Shown here piece by piece: positions 12,016-19,689 of a stretch of 64,000 nucleotides of DNA. Location: positions 507,707 through 571,706 of the forward strand of contig DLUH01000005.1 in NCBI GenBank assembly GCA_002742845.1, read 5' to 3'. Below the pieces are notes generated by a model, which was not told the origin of the DNA, ran no database searches, and worked only from the letters and a program-made list of their open reading frames with translations. A program made the translations under genes and the position numbers. Each line of letters begins with the position of its first letter. Within the stretch, counting starts at the first letter, position 1. This DNA comes from Sulfurovum sp. UBA12169. Lineage in GTDB: Bacteria; Campylobacterota; Campylobacteria; Campylobacterales; Sulfurovaceae.

Positions 12016-13230
12016 ATGAATACAACAAAAGGGTGGATACTGAGTGTTATGACAGGCACGATGGCTATGGCAGGAGGGTATAAGATCCCTGAGCAGTCGC
12101 TTAATTCGATGGCTTTGGGAGCGGCATATGTTGCCCATACCACTGAAGCGGATACGGCATATTTTAATCCTGCAAACATGAGTTTTATGAACGAATCGCA
12201 ATACGTTGAGGGAGGTCTGACGCTGGCGCATCTTCCTTCAAATATTTATACGCTGATTGATCCGTATTCAGGGGAGTCTAAGACGGAAGATATCCTTATT
12301 CCCCACTTTCATTATGTATCCGCATCTGCAGGAGATTTTAGGTGGGGGGCAAGCTTGACGGTACCTGCGGGGTTGACAAAACGCTGGGATACGCCTTATC
12401 AAAAACTGTATGCCAAAGAGTTTACACTGAAAGTTTTAGAATTTAATCCATCGCTTTCCTATAGGGTGTCGGATCATTTGAGTATGGGCGGAGGAGTAAG
12501 ATTTGTTTACAGCGAAGGGACGGTGAAAAGCGAAGGGGATGTTTCACGGGACATGGAAGGCGATACGTTTGAGACAGGATACAATCTGGCACTGGCATAC
12601 AAGCCTGTTCCGGATGTCGATTTTGCAGCAACATACCGATCCAATATCGATCTTAATGAAGAAGGAACCGCAAAACTTTTTTACGGAAGCGCTTTGCTTT
12701 ACAACGGCGATGCAAGCGTTTCGGTTCCTCTGCCCGCTTCGCTCAATATCGCCATCAGCAAAACATGGCAAGAAAAGTTCACTTTAGAATTCAATTATGA
12801 AAAAACCTATTGGTCAAAGTATAAGACATTGGATTTTAAATATGGCGGCACAGATATTGGGCCATTGACACCTTATTTTGATGACCCTATTGCCAAAAAC
12901 TGGAAAGATACCGATACCTTTAGGATCGGAGCAACCATAAAAATGGACAATCAGTTGACAGCCATGTTCGGTTTTGCAATTGATGAGACCCCCGTTCCCG
13001 TAGAGACCGTCGGTTTCGAATTGCCCGACAGCGATGCCAAGATCTTTTCGATGGGATTTCGCTATCGGCAAACAGACAATCTTTCATGGGGTGCTGCATT
13101 TCTTTATGACAGCAAAGAGAGTTTTTCTGTGCCCGCAGGCGTTAATCCAAATGCGGTACTTGCAAATGGCGGAAGCTTTGATGAAGGAGGAGCTTTCTTG
13201 ACGACCATAGGAATTTCTTACGAGTATTGA
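12016..13230 (+). CDS. FadL/TodX-type outer-membrane transport protein
   Basis: 404 aa with signal peptide and the family N-terminus GGYKIPEQSLNSMALGAAYVA followed by DTAYFNPANMSF, as in OMPP1/FadL/TodX (PF03349). The N-terminal plug region and the C-terminal FLTTIGISYEY strand are both present, so it is complete. FadL proteins pass long-chain fatty acids or hydrocarbons across the outer membrane. An AGGAGGGCAAGGGGG purine run gives the ribosome site. It is followed after one base by the acyl-CoA ligase part of the fusion gene, the usual partner for activating imported fatty acids. Confidence 0.9.
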   Translation: MNTTKGWILSVMTGTMAMAGGYKIPEQSLNSMALGAAYVAHTTEADTAYFNPANMSFMNESQYVEGGLTLAHLPSNIYTLIDPYSGESKTEDILIPHFHYVSASAGDFRWGASLTVPAGLTKRWDTPYQKLYAKEFTLKVLEFNPSLSYRVSDHLSMGGGVRFVYSEGTVKSEGDVSRDMEGDTFETGYNLALAYKPVPDVDFAATYRSNIDLNEEGTAKLFYGSALLYNGDASVSVPLPASLNIAISKTWQEKFTLEFNYEKTYWSKYKTLDFKYGGTDIGPLTPYFDDPIAKNWKDTDTFRIGATIKMDNQLTAMFGFAIDETPVPVETVGFELPDSDAKIFSMGFRYRQTDNLSWGAAFLYDSKESFSVPAGVNPNAVLANGGSFDEGGAFLTTIGISYEY

Positions 13231-13231
13231 T

Positions 13232-15919
13232 ATGGATGAAGTGTTTAATAATTTTTATGAGCTGATCTCTTTTAGAGCACAAAAGGACAGAAGAAAAGTA
13301 GCGCTTCTTATTGATGAAGAAAAAATCAGGTATGGCCAGCTGCTTGAAAAAATAGATGCGTTTGCAGGATTTTTGGCACATAAGGGCATTAAAAAAGGCG
13401 ATAAGATCGCACTTTTTTTGCGCAACTGTCCAGAGTTTATCTATAGTGTTTTTGCTGCTTCAAAAGTCGGGGCTATTGTTGTGCCGATCAATACTTTTCT
13501 AAAAGAAGAAGAACTTTCTTATATTCTTGAAAACAGCAAAACGACCATACTGATAGCTTCTGCAGCTTATGAAAAAATAGTGAAAGCAAGTCGTGCTTAT
13601 GCACTATGCGCAAATGTGATATGGGAAGGGGATCTTGAAACAAAGAGCAATTTTGATTGCGAATACAAAGAGGCTATAAATTCAACATTTCATGTATCAC
13701 AAGCAGGCACGACACCCGAAGATATAGCGGTGGTCATCTACACCTCCGGGACTACCGGCAAACCAAAAGGGGCGATGCTAAGCTATAAAAATATTTTTTC
13801 CAATACTCGCTCAGGAACAATTACAATCAATGTTACGTCCAAAGATCGAGCCATTGTTTTTTTACCGATGTTTCATTCTTTTACTTTTTCTATAGGGGTA
13901 ATGCTGCCGTTGTATGTGGGGGCAAGCATTGTCATCATCAAATCCATACAGCCTTTTTCAAATATTTTTAAACAGGTATTGCTTAAACGTGTAACCATTT
14001 TCTTCGGAATACCTGATGTATACAATGCGCTTTCAAAAACAAAACTGCCTTGGTATTTTATGTGGTTTAACTGTGTGCGCGCTTTTATTTCCGGAGCAGC
14101 GCCCTTACAGCCCAAAACGCTTGATGCAATGGCAAGCAAATTTAAAAAAGCAGTTTTGCTCGAAGGGTATGGTTTAAGCGAAGCATCACCCGCGGTCAGT
14201 ATAAATACATTTAAAAAACAAAAAGCCGGATCAGTAGGAACGGCGCTATACGGGTATGAGATAAAGATTGTAGATGAAAATCTGGTTGAAGTGCCACGGG
14301 GTGCAACGGGTGACATTATCGTCAAGGGGGATAATGTCATGAAGGGCTATCTTGGGCTCCCGGAAGCTACAGCCCAGACCATCGTCAATGGGTGGCTGCT
14401 TACCGGCGATATGGGGTATATGGACGAAGAGGGATTTTTGTTTATTGTTGACAGAAAAAAAGATTTGATCATCTCAAAAGGAATTAACATTTACCCGCGT
14501 GAGGTTGAAGAGGTAATCAACGGCTTTAAAGGAATCGCTGCTTCTGCAGTAATAGGGGCAGAAGATGAAAAAAGCGGCGAAATACCTATAGGGTATTTGG
14601 AACTTGAAGAAGAACTCGATCACATAGACGAAGCAGAGCTTAAAGCCTATGTGCGTCAACACCTTGCCGATTATAAGATACCTAGACAATTTCATATTGT
14701 CAAGGCATTGCCCAAAAATGCAACGGGAAAAGTGCTAAAGCGCGCATTAAAAGAGCAACTAAAAGAAAAGCATTTGTTTGAAGATTCGGGAGTTATTAAA
14801 GCGATCGTCAATGCCAGACTGTTTCTTGAGGAGGAGATAATAGAAGGAAAAGTATTGCTTTTTGGCAAGAAGATTGTCGGTATTGTCGACGTGCCTCCTG
14901 AAAATATAGAGATCATTGATGCAAAAGGGGCTTGCGTGAGCGCAGGTTTTATCGATTTGCATATTCATGGCTCTGGTGGCGCGGATGTCATGGATGCCAC
15001 ACCTTTGGCATTGGAAACGATCTCTTCAACACTTCCGCAGACGGGCACAACCTCTTTTTTGGCTACAACGATGACGATGTCAACAGAAGCGATATGCAAT
15101 GCTTTGAAAAATATTCAAGCAAGCAAACAAAAGGTAAGCGGCGCAAAGATATTGGGAGCGCATTTGGAAGGGCCATTTATCAATCCCTTAAAGCATGGCG
15201 CACAAAATAAGGCATACGTGCAAACACCCAATACGGCATGGATTGAGGCATATGCGGATGAGGTGAAAATGATTACGCTTGCTCCTGAAGTGGAAGGAGC
15301 ACAAGAGTTTATTCGGTATATTGCAAAACAATATCCTTATATTGTTTTAAGCATTGGGCATAGTGATGCAAGCTATGAACAAACCAAAGCAAGTTTTGCG
15401 CAAGGCATTTCTCATGCGACACACCTCTTTAATGCAATGAACGTTTATCATCACAGAAAACCGGGTGTCGTCGGCGCTGTATTTGATGCGGACGTTACAT
15501 GTGATATTATTGCAGACTTGGTACATACGCATCCTTCTGTCTTGGCGCTTACATATCGGCTTAAAAAAGATAAACTGATCCTTGTTTCTGATGCAATGCG
15601 CGCAGGATGCATGAAAAACGGGACATATGATTTGGGCGGACAAAAGGCGGAGGTTTCAAAAGGAAAAGCGTTGCTCGAAGACGGCACGCTCGCGGGCAGC
15701 GTATTAAGGCTGAATGAGGCATTGAAAAATATGATAACCTTTACTCCCATGACGCCGCTGGAAGCAGTGAGGAGCGTGACAGCGCTTCCCGCCCAAAAGC
15801 TCAGCATAAAAAAGGGAGCACTTAAAGCGGGGTATGATGCAGATATAGTGATGTTTGATGAAGATTTTAGTATCATGCTAACAGTCATTGACGGAGAAGT
15901 AAGCTATCAAAGGGGATAA
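13232..15919 (+). CDS. Fusion: long-chain acyl-CoA ligase + N-acetylglucosamine-6-phosphate deacetylase
   Basis: 895 aa in one frame. Residues 1 to about 510 form a complete AMP-binding acyl-CoA synthetase: YTSGTTGKPKG (about 170-180), GYGLSEASPA, GDMGYMDEEGFLFIVDRKKD and the C-terminal catalytic lysine in KNATGKVLKR. Residues from about 517 to the end form a full-length NagA: GFIDLHIHGSGG, HLEGPF, GHSDAS, THLFNAM and VSDAM carry the metal and substrate residues. Nothing of either enzyme seems lost. The linker is only about ten residues. The fusion spans two pathways: fatty-acid activation (with the FadL-type gene before it) and GlcNAc use (with EIIA after it). Loss of a stop codon between operon neighbours is the simplest origin; a sequencing frameshift is the alternative. 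Confidence 0.88.
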   Translation: MDEVFNNFYELISFRAQKDRRKVALLIDEEKIRYGQLLEKIDAFAGFLAHKGIKKGDKIALFLRNCPEFIYSVFAASKVGAIVVPINTFLKEEELSYILENSKTTILIASAAYEKIVKASRAYALCANVIWEGDLETKSNFDCEYKEAINSTFHVSQAGTTPEDIAVVIYTSGTTGKPKGAMLSYKNIFSNTRSGTITINVTSKDRAIVFLPMFHSFTFSIGVMLPLYVGASIVIIKSIQPFSNIFKQVLLKRVTIFFGIPDVYNALSKTKLPWYFMWFNCVRAFISGAAPLQPKTLDAMASKFKKAVLLEGYGLSEASPAVSINTFKKQKAGSVGTALYGYEIKIVDENLVEVPRGATGDIIVKGDNVMKGYLGLPEATAQTIVNGWLLTGDMGYMDEEGFLFIVDRKKDLIISKGINIYPREVEEVINGFKGIAASAVIGAEDEKSGEIPIGYLELEEELDHIDEAELKAYVRQHLADYKIPRQFHIVKALPKNATGKVLKRALKEQLKEKHLFEDSGVIKAIVNARLFLEEEIIEGKVLLFGKKIVGIVDVPPENIEIIDAKGACVSAGFIDLHIHGSGGADVMDATPLALETISSTLPQTGTTSFLATTMTMSTEAICNALKNIQASKQKVSGAKILGAHLEGPFINPLKHGAQNKAYVQTPNTAWIEAYADEVKMITLAPEVEGAQEFIRYIAKQYPYIVLSIGHSDASYEQTKASFAQGISHATHLFNAMNVYHHRKPGVVGAVFDADVTCDIIADLVHTHPSVLALTYRLKKDKLILVSDAMRAGCMKNGTYDLGGQKAEVSKGKALLEDGTLAGSVLRLNEALKNMITFTPMTPLEAVRSVTALPAQKLSIKKGALKAGYDADIVMFDEDFSIMLTVIDGEVSYQRG

Positions 15920-16390
15920 ATGTTTGGATTTTTTAAGCGCAAAGCAAGGGAGATAAAGTCTCCCGTAGATGGAATGGTGGTAGCACTTGAAAGTGTCAAG
16001 GATGATGTTTTTTCCCAAAAAATGGTGGGAGACGGGGTGGCTGTGATACCAATGTCTGAGATATTTACAGCACCTATTGACGGCGTGGTCGTAAAAATTT
16101 TCCCAACCAATCATGCCTATAGCATTAAATCAGATAAAGACTTGACTGTTATGGTACATATTGGTTTGGATACGGTTGAGTTAGAGGGAAGAGGGTTTGA
16201 GCGCCTTGTCAATGAAGGGGATACCGTTTCTTGCGGGGACGCGATCATTCGGGCAGATCTGCCTTATTTGCGCCAACATGCAAAAGATATCATCACGCCG
16301 GTTATTATTTCTGATGAAAGTGATGTTAAAAAGATCGAAAAAAAATACACTATTGTCAAAAGCGGCGATAGTATAATGGAAGTAATGTGA
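15920..16390 (+). CDS. crr: PTS glucose/GlcNAc-type EIIA component
   Basis: 156 aa, complete IIA-Glc fold. The phosphate-accepting His lies in VMVHIGLDTVELEGRGF, and the partner His in TNHAYSIKSDKDL. It takes phosphate from HPr and passes it to the IIB domain of the EIICB at 16482-17858, which lacks a IIA domain of its own. The ATG follows directly after the stop of the deacetylase fusion gene, so the two are co-translated. A small membrane-peptide frame overlaps its stop as GTGA. Confidence 0.93.
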   Translation: MFGFFKRKAREIKSPVDGMVVALESVKDDVFSQKMVGDGVAVIPMSEIFTAPIDGVVVKIFPTNHAYSIKSDKDLTVMVHIGLDTVELEGRGFERLVNEGDTVSCGDAIIRADLPYLRQHAKDIITPVIISDESDVKKIEKKYTIVKSGDSIMEVM

Positions 16391-16485
16391 TACCGGAAGT
16401 TGACAGCTATTACCACTATATTGCATATGCAGTTATTGTTGTTGTTTTCTTTTTGGTCTTAAAGTTGCCTAAAAAGAAAGATTAA
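16387..16485 (+). CDS. Candidate 32-residue single-span membrane peptide
   Basis: A GTG overlapping the crr stop (GTGA) opens a 33-codon frame ending at TAA 16483-16485. The peptide starts VIPEVDSYYHYIAYAVIVVV, continues with FFLVL, and ends in LPKKKD: a short head, about 17 hydrophobic residues and a positively charged tail, the pattern of a small inner-membrane protein with a cytoplasmic C-terminus. Four-base coupling to crr and its fit into the gap before the convergent nagE (overlap of four bases) support it. Chance is not excluded for so short a frame. It could be an accessory of the PTS permease. Confidence 0.45.
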   Translation: MIPEVDSYYHYIAYAVIVVVFFLVLKLPKKKD

Positions 16486-17858
16486 CGCTTTAGTGCCTCT
16501 TTGATCGATTCGGCAATATGTTGCGCTTTTGTGCCAAGCACGATCTGGATAGATGTATCGTCAGGCCGTATTACTCCTTTGGCTCCCAATGCTATAAATG
16601 CTTTTTCATTAAGCCCCTTGTTTTGTTTGAGACGCATTCTTAGCCTTGTAATGCATGCATCTGTATGGATAATATTGTCTGCTCCTCCCAATGCATTGAT
16701 AAAGGCCAAAGCTTCATTGCCGGCTTGGGGCTTGGGTGTTTCTGCGGATTCTTCAAATAGTTTCAGCCTAAAATATTTGATAACGTAATAGCTGACAACA
16801 AAATAGATAAGCGCAAATACTATTCCCAGCGGAAGGATAAGCAGTGGGCGGGTAGCAAGTGTATAGTTGATGAGATAGTCTATAAATCCTGCAGAAAAAC
16901 CAAAGCCCGCATGGATATCAAGTAACTGCGCCAAGGCAAGTGCCAAGCCTGTGAGGAGCGCATGCACAATAAAAAGAAAAGGCGCTTCAAACAAAAATAA
17001 AAATTCCATAGGCTCGGTAATTCCTGTAAGAAAAGAGGTAAAAGCAACACCTCCTAAAAGTGCTCCTGCCTTTTTTCGATATGCTTTTGCTGTACCAAGG
17101 TACATTGCCAGCGCCATGCCTGGCAATCCAAACATCATGACTATGTAAAATCCCGACATATACACGCCGGCAGTTTTGTCTCCTGCAAAAAAACGGTGCA
17201 GATCGCCGTGCGCAATGATCTCTTGACCTTCTTTGATGTAGCTGTAATCGCCCAATTGAAACCAAAAAACAGAATTAAGAATATGGTGCAATCCTAAAGG
17301 AATAAGCAGACGATTGAGAGTGCCGTAGATAAAGGTACCCCATGCCTCCAGCCCTATAATTGCGCTGGAAAACGTATCGATACCGCTTTGAGCATAATGC
17401 CAAAAATACCCGGCCAGCACCCCCACAAAGATCGCAGCAAAAGAAGTGACAATAGGTACAAAGCGTTTGCCTCCAAAAAAACCGAGATACTCGGGAAGTT
17501 TGATATCATGAAAGCGATTGTAAAGACTGCCTGCAAGTACGCCGATGATGATGCCTATAAATACACCCATGTTGACGTTCTCATCGATGTTTACATAGAC
17601 TGCTTTGGCTATCAGTACGCCTATTGCACCAGAAAGCGCAGCGGCTCCGTCGTGGTTTTTGGAAAGTCCATAGGCGATTCCGACACCGAAAAGAAGATCA
17701 AGATTGGTAAACACAGCATCTCCGGCACTTTTCATCACCGAAGCTATTTGTCCGTCAAAAATGTCACCAAAGCCCAAACGAAGCAATAGTGCCGCAACGG
17801 GCAGTACCGCTATGGGGGTCATCAAGGCTTTGCCGATACGCTCAAACAGGCTAAACAT
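16482..17858 (-). CDS. nagE: PTS EIICB permease, N-acetylglucosamine (NagE) type
   Basis: 458 aa. The N-terminal IIC part (about 1-365) has about ten hydrophobic segments and starts FERIGKALMTPIAVLPVAALLL. GLHHILNSVFWFQLG and FFAGDKTAGVYMSGFYIVMMFGLPG fit the GlcNAc branch of the glucose superfamily. The IIB domain (about 385-458) has the phosphocysteine in DACITRLRMRL. There is no IIA domain, which is supplied by the crr gene converging on it. It imports and phosphorylates its sugar to a 6-phosphate, the substrate type of the NagA domain at 13232-15919. It overlaps the upstream HPr-EI gene by eight bases. Confidence 0.92.
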   Translation of the reverse strand: MFSLFERIGKALMTPIAVLPVAALLLRLGFGDIFDGQIASVMKSAGDAVFTNLDLLFGVGIAYGLSKNHDGAAALSGAIGVLIAKAVYVNIDENVNMGVFIGIIIGVLAGSLYNRFHDIKLPEYLGFFGGKRFVPIVTSFAAIFVGVLAGYFWHYAQSGIDTFSSAIIGLEAWGTFIYGTLNRLLIPLGLHHILNSVFWFQLGDYSYIKEGQEIIAHGDLHRFFAGDKTAGVYMSGFYIVMMFGLPGMALAMYLGTAKAYRKKAGALLGGVAFTSFLTGITEPMEFLFLFEAPFLFIVHALLTGLALALAQLLDIHAGFGFSAGFIDYLINYTLATRPLLILPLGIVFALIYFVVSYYVIKYFRLKLFEESAETPKPQAGNEALAFINALGGADNIIHTDACITRLRMRLKQNKGLNEKAFIALGAKGVIRPDDTSIQIVLGTKAQHIAESIKEALKR

Positions 17859-19689
17859 GCCGTATCTCCTCTTTAACGGTGCTGATCATTTTGGGAGAGA
17901 CGCTCAATGTCTCGATCCCTAGAGTTATCAGTTTGGGTATTGCCTTAGCCTCTGAGGCAAGTTCTCCGCAGAGGCTAAGAGGTTTAGCAGCTTCTTTGAC
18001 AATCTTTTCCAGCACATCAAAAAGTATGCTCGAATGCGCATCGAGTTTAAGCGTGGGGTGGGTACGCTCAACGGCAAAAAGATATTGGCTTAGGTCATTG
18101 GTGCCGATCGAATAAAAATCAACTACACTATTGAACCGCTGCAGCAAAAAGAGTACCGAAGGAACCTCTATCATAATGCCAAATTGGATAGAAGAGATAT
18201 CAAGTTCATGCTTTTGAGCGATGCGATAGGCAAACGCTTTGGCTTCAATAAACTCCTCTACTTGAGCAACCATCGGGAACATAATTTTTATAGGTTTTTT
18301 TTGTGCAGCAACAAAAATGGCATGCAGTTGTTCTTCAATGATTTCAGGATGTGTCCGGAAAAGACGTATGCCCCGTACGCCCAAGAAAGGATTGTTCTCA
18401 TGCGGGAGCCGGATGTACGGCAATGCTTTGTCTCCTCCTATATCCAGTGTACGAACAGTAATGTTGTCAAAGAGGGCAAAGATCTCCTTATAGGCGTGCA
18501 CTTGAGTCTCAAACGAGGGTTTTACCTGGGTAAATAAAAATTCACTGCGCAAAAGACCGATGCCTTCGGCGCCTTCTTCTTTGGCTTCTTTGGCACTTTT
18601 GACATCCGAGACATTGGCAAGAAGATGAATTGGTTTGCCTTGTGTGGTGAGCGCCTTTTTGAAACGTTGAGACCGGATATGTCTTTTTGTGCGTTTATTC
18701 TTTTGTAAACGCTCTGTCGCTTTTTGTAAATCATTTTGGCTTGGTGTGTAAATCAGTACCCCGGCATAGGCATCCAATACAATCACATCAGGAACAAGAG
18801 TACACTCTGTATCGTCGGGTAAGGCAAGGATAAGCGAAGGTATCCCTGCTGCGCGCAGCAAAATAGCAGCATGTGAACGTAAAGAGGATTTCTTAAGGAT
18901 GACACCTTGCACCCGGCTTTGTGTCAACTGCTCTATTTGGTTAGGAAGAAGATCCTCTGCAAAAAGAATAAAAGGTGTTGCCGGAAGTACCATTTTTTCT
19001 TCTATTCCCAAATGTTTTTTCACGCGCCAAAGGAGATCTTGGTAGTCGCTTATTTTGGCTTTCATCGAAGTTTCCCCAAGAGAACATGAAGCCTGTTGAA
19101 CGGCATCCTCAAAATCTTCCAGCGTATTATTTTTTTGTGTCAATGTTTTGAGTAGTTCTTTTTGTGCAAGATAGATACTCGCATCAGGTGTTGTTTGGTG
19201 TAGGGTGTGCAGCATGTCAAGCTCCTGCAGGCTATTTTTGAGAGCCTCTTGAAAGCCTAAGCTGTTTTGTGTCGATACCTCTTGTGTCGTATGCTCATAC
19301 AGCTTGGCTATAGCAATGCCTTCTGCGATGATGTCTCCTTCGAGAATTTTTCCTTCATAGGCAATCTTTTCTTTTTGTATCGGGTGTATTTCCTGGTCGT
19401 TTTGCATGAGAAAAGAAAACTGTTTTGTCAAGGCCTCAAGCGCTTCTTCTGCTTTTCTGCCTTGAGTGATAAGCGTAAAGCAGTCTTGTGTGTCCAGAGA
19501 AAGCGAAAGCAGCGCATTAATGTTTTTGGCATCGACTTTTTTATCCTTAAAAGAGGCGAAAATACTGCATGGAAACTGTTTTGCCGTACTGGCAAAAGAA
19601 GCCACGGGCCGCAGATGAAATCCATTAGCTGATGTAACGCACAGGTGCGCTTGATAGGGTTTATAAAAAATTGTAGTTAAAAATGACAT
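17851..19689 (-). CDS. ptsI: PTS HPr-Enzyme I fusion protein
   Basis: 612 aa. An HPr domain (about 1-95) with phospho-His in NGFHLRPVASF is fused to Enzyme I. EI features: phospho-His in SLRSHAAILLRAAGIPS, GIGLLRSEFLF, LGVRGIRLFRTHPE, and the PEP-site region IGTNDLSQYLFAVERTHP with the catalytic Cys in LCGELA. It transfers phosphate from PEP through its own HPr to EIIA. The EI part is a little shorter than E. coli EI (575 aa), mostly in the N-terminal helical part, but no catalytic residue is missing. It is the first gene of a two-gene operon with nagE. Confidence 0.93.
   Translation of the reverse strand: MSFLTTIFYKPYQAHLCVTSANGFHLRPVASFASTAKQFPCSIFASFKDKKVDAKNINALLSLSLDTQDCFTLITQGRKAEEALEALTKQFSFLMQNDQEIHPIQKEKIAYEGKILEGDIIAEGIAIAKLYEHTTQEVSTQNSLGFQEALKNSLQELDMLHTLHQTTPDASIYLAQKELLKTLTQKNNTLEDFEDAVQQASCSLGETSMKAKISDYQDLLWRVKKHLGIEEKMVLPATPFILFAEDLLPNQIEQLTQSRVQGVILKKSSLRSHAAILLRAAGIPSLILALPDDTECTLVPDVIVLDAYAGVLIYTPSQNDLQKATERLQKNKRTKRHIRSQRFKKALTTQGKPIHLLANVSDVKSAKEAKEEGAEGIGLLRSEFLFTQVKPSFETQVHAYKEIFALFDNITVRTLDIGGDKALPYIRLPHENNPFLGVRGIRLFRTHPEIIEEQLHAIFVAAQKKPIKIMFPMVAQVEEFIEAKAFAYRIAQKHELDISSIQFGIMIEVPSVLFLLQRFNSVVDFYSIGTNDLSQYLFAVERTHPTLKLDAHSSILFDVLEKIVKEAAKPLSLCGELASEAKAIPKLITLGIETLSVSPKMISTVKEEIRHV

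Follow-up and report, generated by a model that had tools for sequence, protein, structure and literature searches.

Two well-described enzyme families, the FadD-type long-chain acyl-CoA ligases (NF004837/PRK06187, ANL superfamily) and the N-acetylglucosamine-6-phosphate deacetylases (NagA, TIGR00221; solved structures 2vhl, 3egj and 1ymy), are the closest known relatives of the protein described here. Among the results listed in a limited literature search there was no paper on the ligase-NagA domain pair, and those on non-canonical starts and operon fusions were general background only. As far as that search reaches, the pair is apparently new, while its mode of origin is ordinary. The window analysed is a stretch of 64,000 nucleotides from Sulfurovum sp. 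UBA12169 (genome G000). Its ligase resembles the FadD-type enzymes in the full-length match, the P-loop, the C-terminal lysine motif and the FadL partner, and differs from them in carrying a NagA at its C-terminus. The NagA in turn matches its family at full length and above the cut-off, with aligned metal and catalytic motifs. It differs in having its N-terminus tethered to a ligase, and in belonging to a genome without a NagB homologue.

The two enzymes share an uninterrupted frame from ATG to TAA that translates into 895 residues (Table 1). Pfam domains were found at residues 15-374 (AMP-binding, 1e-84), 424-500 (AMP-binding_C) and 569-890 (Amidohydro_1). Residues 3-514 matched PRK06187 (NF004837, long-chain-fatty-acid--CoA ligase) with 550.9 bits against a cut-off of 476, covering profile positions 5-526 of 531, and residues 524-888 matched TIGR00221 (nagA) with 344.5 bits against an equivalog cut-off of 225.65, covering positions 6-379 of 380. 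Both halves score above the curated NCBIfam cut-offs at full length, which bears out the sequence-only reading of two complete enzymes in one 895-residue chain, a FadD-type ligase and a NagA connected by about 8 residues. The best structural match of the NagA half was 2vhl, and its metal and catalytic motifs also aligned with 3egj, 1o12 and 1ymy. The HxH pair, the Glu of LEGPF, the His of GHS, the His of THLFNAM and the Asp of SDA are all present; we take their catalytic and metal-binding roles from the NagA family literature. An AlphaFold model of the fused chain was mediocre (pLDDT 68, pTM 0.43) and too weak for claims about the domain interface. With low overall confidence, it ends the ligase in a helix (499-514), has a low-confidence stretch at 510-519 and begins NagA with a strand at 523. 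As had been noticed from the sequence, the gene lies at the junction of a FadL/ligase module and a GlcNAc-PTS module, with FadL before it and EIIA after it.

Table 1. Features of the fused gene and its neighbours (nucleotide positions refer to the window; motifs are given as residues of the fused chain)
Feature	Position	Strand	Remarks
FadL-family outer-membrane protein	12016..13230	+	upstream; stop codon one base from the ligase ATG
Fused ligase-NagA ORF	13232..15919	+	895 aa; same frame in G073, G096 and G034
FadD-type acyl-CoA ligase half	13232..14767	+	residues 1-512
P-loop YTSGTTGKPKG (ligase half)	residues 170-180
YGLSE (ligase half)	residues 313-317
C-terminal lysine motif PKNATGK (ligase half)	residues 494-500
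Out-of-frame (+1) TAA	14760..14762	+	from Leu-Lys codons CTA-AAA, conserved in 4/4 fused copies; not the ligase stop
Linker	14768..14794	+	K/G/R-H/Y-L-F/L-E-D-S-x-x; equal length in 4/4 fused genomes; low-confidence stretch 510-519 in the model
TTG codon	14774..14776	+	only canonical-type internal start giving full-length NagA; kept in 4/4 fused genomes
ATT codon	14795..14797	+	where many unfused relatives begin nagA, with ATG or ATC/ATT
NagA half	14798..15916	+	residues 523-895; HIHG, HLEGPF, SIGHS, THLFNAM and VSDA align with solved NagA structures
PTS EIIA (glucose/GlcNAc type)	15920..16390	+	immediately downstream of the fused ORF
PTS EIICB	16482..17858	-	best-scoring NCBIfam model: GlcNAc-specific IIBC (518 bits; cut-off of 553 not reached)
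HPr-EI PTS fusion protein	17851..19689	-	HPr at 15-91, then EI domains, in one chain

The NagA half served as the query against 78 genomes of the genus. A 902-codon open frame surrounded NagA in the window genome and in three others (G073, G096 and G034), while the remaining full-length NagA frames measured 374-448 codons, and NagA stood in its own frame in about 60 other NagA-bearing genomes. The sister copies come from separate public records (JAJPEU010000009.1, JAUPLS010000150.1 and DHHF01000001.1) of the Sulfurovum lineage; overall identity is 81-91%, with an uninterrupted frame and a linker of identical length. Among 397 genomes sampled across the class, NagA matches were confined to this family (18 genomes) and were fused only in G000 and G034, though rare cases elsewhere may escape a sample. 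A sequencing or assembly frameshift joining two separate genes had to be considered: the genes are separate in relatives, and near the end of the ligase there is a TAA that a shift of one base would bring into frame. That TAA had been placed at 14758-14760, right after the usual end of the ligase; it actually occupies 14760-14762 and belongs to the +1 frame. Across the genus, almost every unfused ligase examined continues through this point and stops several codons later (e.g. KEQLKEEAQ*, KERLRDT* and KDKLKKDEL*), so the TAA falls within the normal coding region of relatives and is not a natural ligase end. Since three separately recorded genomes share the same continuous frame and linker length, an artefact is refuted for practical purposes, and the ORF is a real, clade-specific fusion of two operon neighbours, not a sequencing error.

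The unfused state is well represented in the genus. In most relatives the ligase gene and nagA are adjacent and co-oriented, separated mostly by -1 to about 60 bases and by longer gaps in a few. Junction alignments showed that in about 12 of 27 unfused cases the two genes already share a frame with one stop between them, a layout in which losing that stop suffices to fuse them. The four fused copies grouped together in the ligase tree and in the NagA tree alike (support 100/99), and every one of 200 bootstrap trees (100%) recovered them as monophyletic. The simplest account is a single fusion event in which the ligase lost its stop. A lineage-specific operon fusion is characterised by one origin and by an outgroup in which the orthologues lie side by side unfused, and the locus shows both. 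In the nearest unfused relative (G030) the nagA frame differs from that of the ligase; a small indel may therefore have been part of the path. Selection for an open linker was considered and set aside, since chance may account for it: under a neutral, substitution-only simulation no stop arose in the linker of any of the four genomes with a frequency of about 21-34% (P 0.21-0.34), and a stop-free linker alone is no proof of selection for the fusion.

Several relatives differ from these layouts. The ligase was found without an adjacent nagA at loci L065, L088, L089, L091, L092 and L099. In several relatives EndoIV, FadL and the ligase follow one another without nag genes, some with an AAA gene after them. 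Conversely, nag genes adjoin EndoIV in G071 and G019, where FadL and the ligase are missing from this place, and at loci L063 and L078 nagA lies next to EndoIV without the ligase. Each module thus occurs without the other; they are separable, and the GlcNAc module looks as if it had been inserted behind the ligase. In the fused gene of G096 (L072), the ligase half groups with the window and G073 and the NagA half with G034, a discordance suggestive of intragenic recombination among members of the clade. The spacers between ligase and nagA are unusually long in G023 (L035, about 210 bases) and G099 (L073, about 130 bases). Immediately ahead of nagA the two resemble each other in one segment (ccatgcaggcagattgg), which may be a small inserted element. 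In the draft genome G031 (L055), nagA consists of two overlapping pieces in different frames and is either frameshifted or mis-assembled.

The sequence-only reading had raised the possibility that a bifunctional enzyme could reuse acetate, the ligase making acetyl-CoA from what NagA releases. Nothing speaks for this except that the two domains stand next to each other. The ligase is a member of PRK06187, a FadD-type family. In acetyl-CoA synthetases, the Trp of the (W/Y)WQTE motif limits the pocket to acetate; the fused ligase has YGLSE instead, its Gly aligning with the Trp of WWQTE (L002) and YWQTE (L003), two Acs-type enzymes of the same genome. The replacement suggests a larger acyl pocket. 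Fusions that channel a substrate join modules that co-occur and share an intermediate; these modules occur separately, with ligase and FadL lacking an adjacent nagA in some relatives and nagA lacking an adjacent ligase in G071 and G019. On grounds of motif and synteny the acetate proposal was rejected, and the fusion is probably not an acetate-recycling enzyme, a role to which we give very little credence.

The genome content bears on what the two halves may do. No match was found in the genome to 3-hydroxyacyl-CoA dehydrogenase (3HCDH, PF00725), acyl-CoA dehydrogenase (PF00441) or NagB (PF01182). The one thiolase-family match was weak (27 bits, in a 347-codon frame) and is probably a FabH-type synthase. 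Without 3HCDH and acyl-CoA dehydrogenase, acyl-CoA from the ligase is probably not fed to beta-oxidation. Since the usual catabolic genes are lacking and GlmM was found, salvage of envelope precursors is favoured over catabolism, with GlcN-6-P presumably passing to UDP-GlcNAc and acyl-CoA perhaps to lipid use. That neither classical catabolic pathway is complete might also indicate that one half is non-functional and carried as a passenger. However, the catalytic motifs are intact, and dN/dS was 0.07-0.14 in both halves (dS about 0.3-1.25). Both halves are under purifying selection, and a passenger half is very unlikely.

The fused gene might also give two products, the full chain and a free NagA initiated internally at TTG 14774. 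This codon is preserved in all four fused copies. In G034, G073 and G096 it is preceded by a Shine-Dalgarno-like AGAGGGG or AGAGAGG with duplex energies of -6.9 to -7.4, computed with a Campylobacterota-like 16S tail; these values reach or pass the -6.9 that marks the strongest 5% of background TTG codons. In the window genome, however, the site has decayed to AAAAGAAAAG (-1.1). TTG was retained in all four copies at 6 of the 64 columns with a conserved Leu, and near the junction codon identity matched the gene-wide level; no extra constraint is seen there, and synonymous constraint at the internal TTG does not rise above background. Internal initiation looks plausible in the three sisters, where a second product is possible, and weakly indicated in the window genome, where the fusion is most likely the source of NagA. 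For the clade as a whole we regard dual output as doubtful, though deserving some weight.

Where nagA usually starts, G000 and G073 have ATT, G096 has GTC and G034 has CTC. Among 55 unfused nagA loci, 13 had no ATG, GTG or TTG in the nagA frame within 45 bases upstream (L043, L044, L052, L054, L058, L062, L084, L085, L101, L104, L167, L169 and L170), and in nearly all of these none occurred back to the in-frame stop either. These loci have ATC or ATT at the usual start, mostly behind a good Shine-Dalgarno sequence (e.g. GGAGG in L058 and L169). The ATC recurs in L056 and L057, behind the strongest Shine-Dalgarno (-14.2) and together with one TTG 21 bases farther upstream. In this group nagA appears to start repeatedly at AUC or AUU.

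We suggest, with a probability of roughly 0.78, that one gene was made once in the ancestor of the four-genome Sulfurovum clade, yielding one chain with two predicted activities side by side whose products probably go to the envelope. Adjacent, same-strand genes for a fadD-like ligase and NagA would have lost the intervening stop with their frames in register, and the gene would then be translated as a single 895-residue chain. Its ligase would activate medium- or long-chain fatty acids admitted by FadL, and its NagA would deacetylate the GlcNAc-6-P that the adjacent PTS supplies, both activities running alongside each other without channelling. The products would probably enter envelope building, GlcN-6-P via GlmM and acyl-CoA through lipid use, a destination proposed because the genome lacks the usual genes of catabolism. 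Nothing observed points to metabolic coupling between the halves, and the fusion is probably functionally modest. That the tether itself was selected, keeping NagA next to a membrane-associated fatty-acid ligase and supplying envelope synthesis with acyl chains and recycled amino sugar at a fixed 1:1 ratio, seems unlikely.

The locus is a well-bracketed case of two unrelated enzymes becoming one bacterial protein, since a single genus contains unfused in-frame neighbours, fused sisters with a ribosome-binding-like site and the window species in which that site has decayed. It also cautions annotators that a fusion resembling an accident of gene order should not imply a metabolic link. Compared with known fusions of operon neighbours by stop-codon loss, the partners here belong to unrelated pathways and their modules lie apart in relatives, so that the pathway logic is not obvious. 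In every other respect compared it follows the same pattern: adjacent genes on the same strand, a short gap, frames often in register and a single clade.
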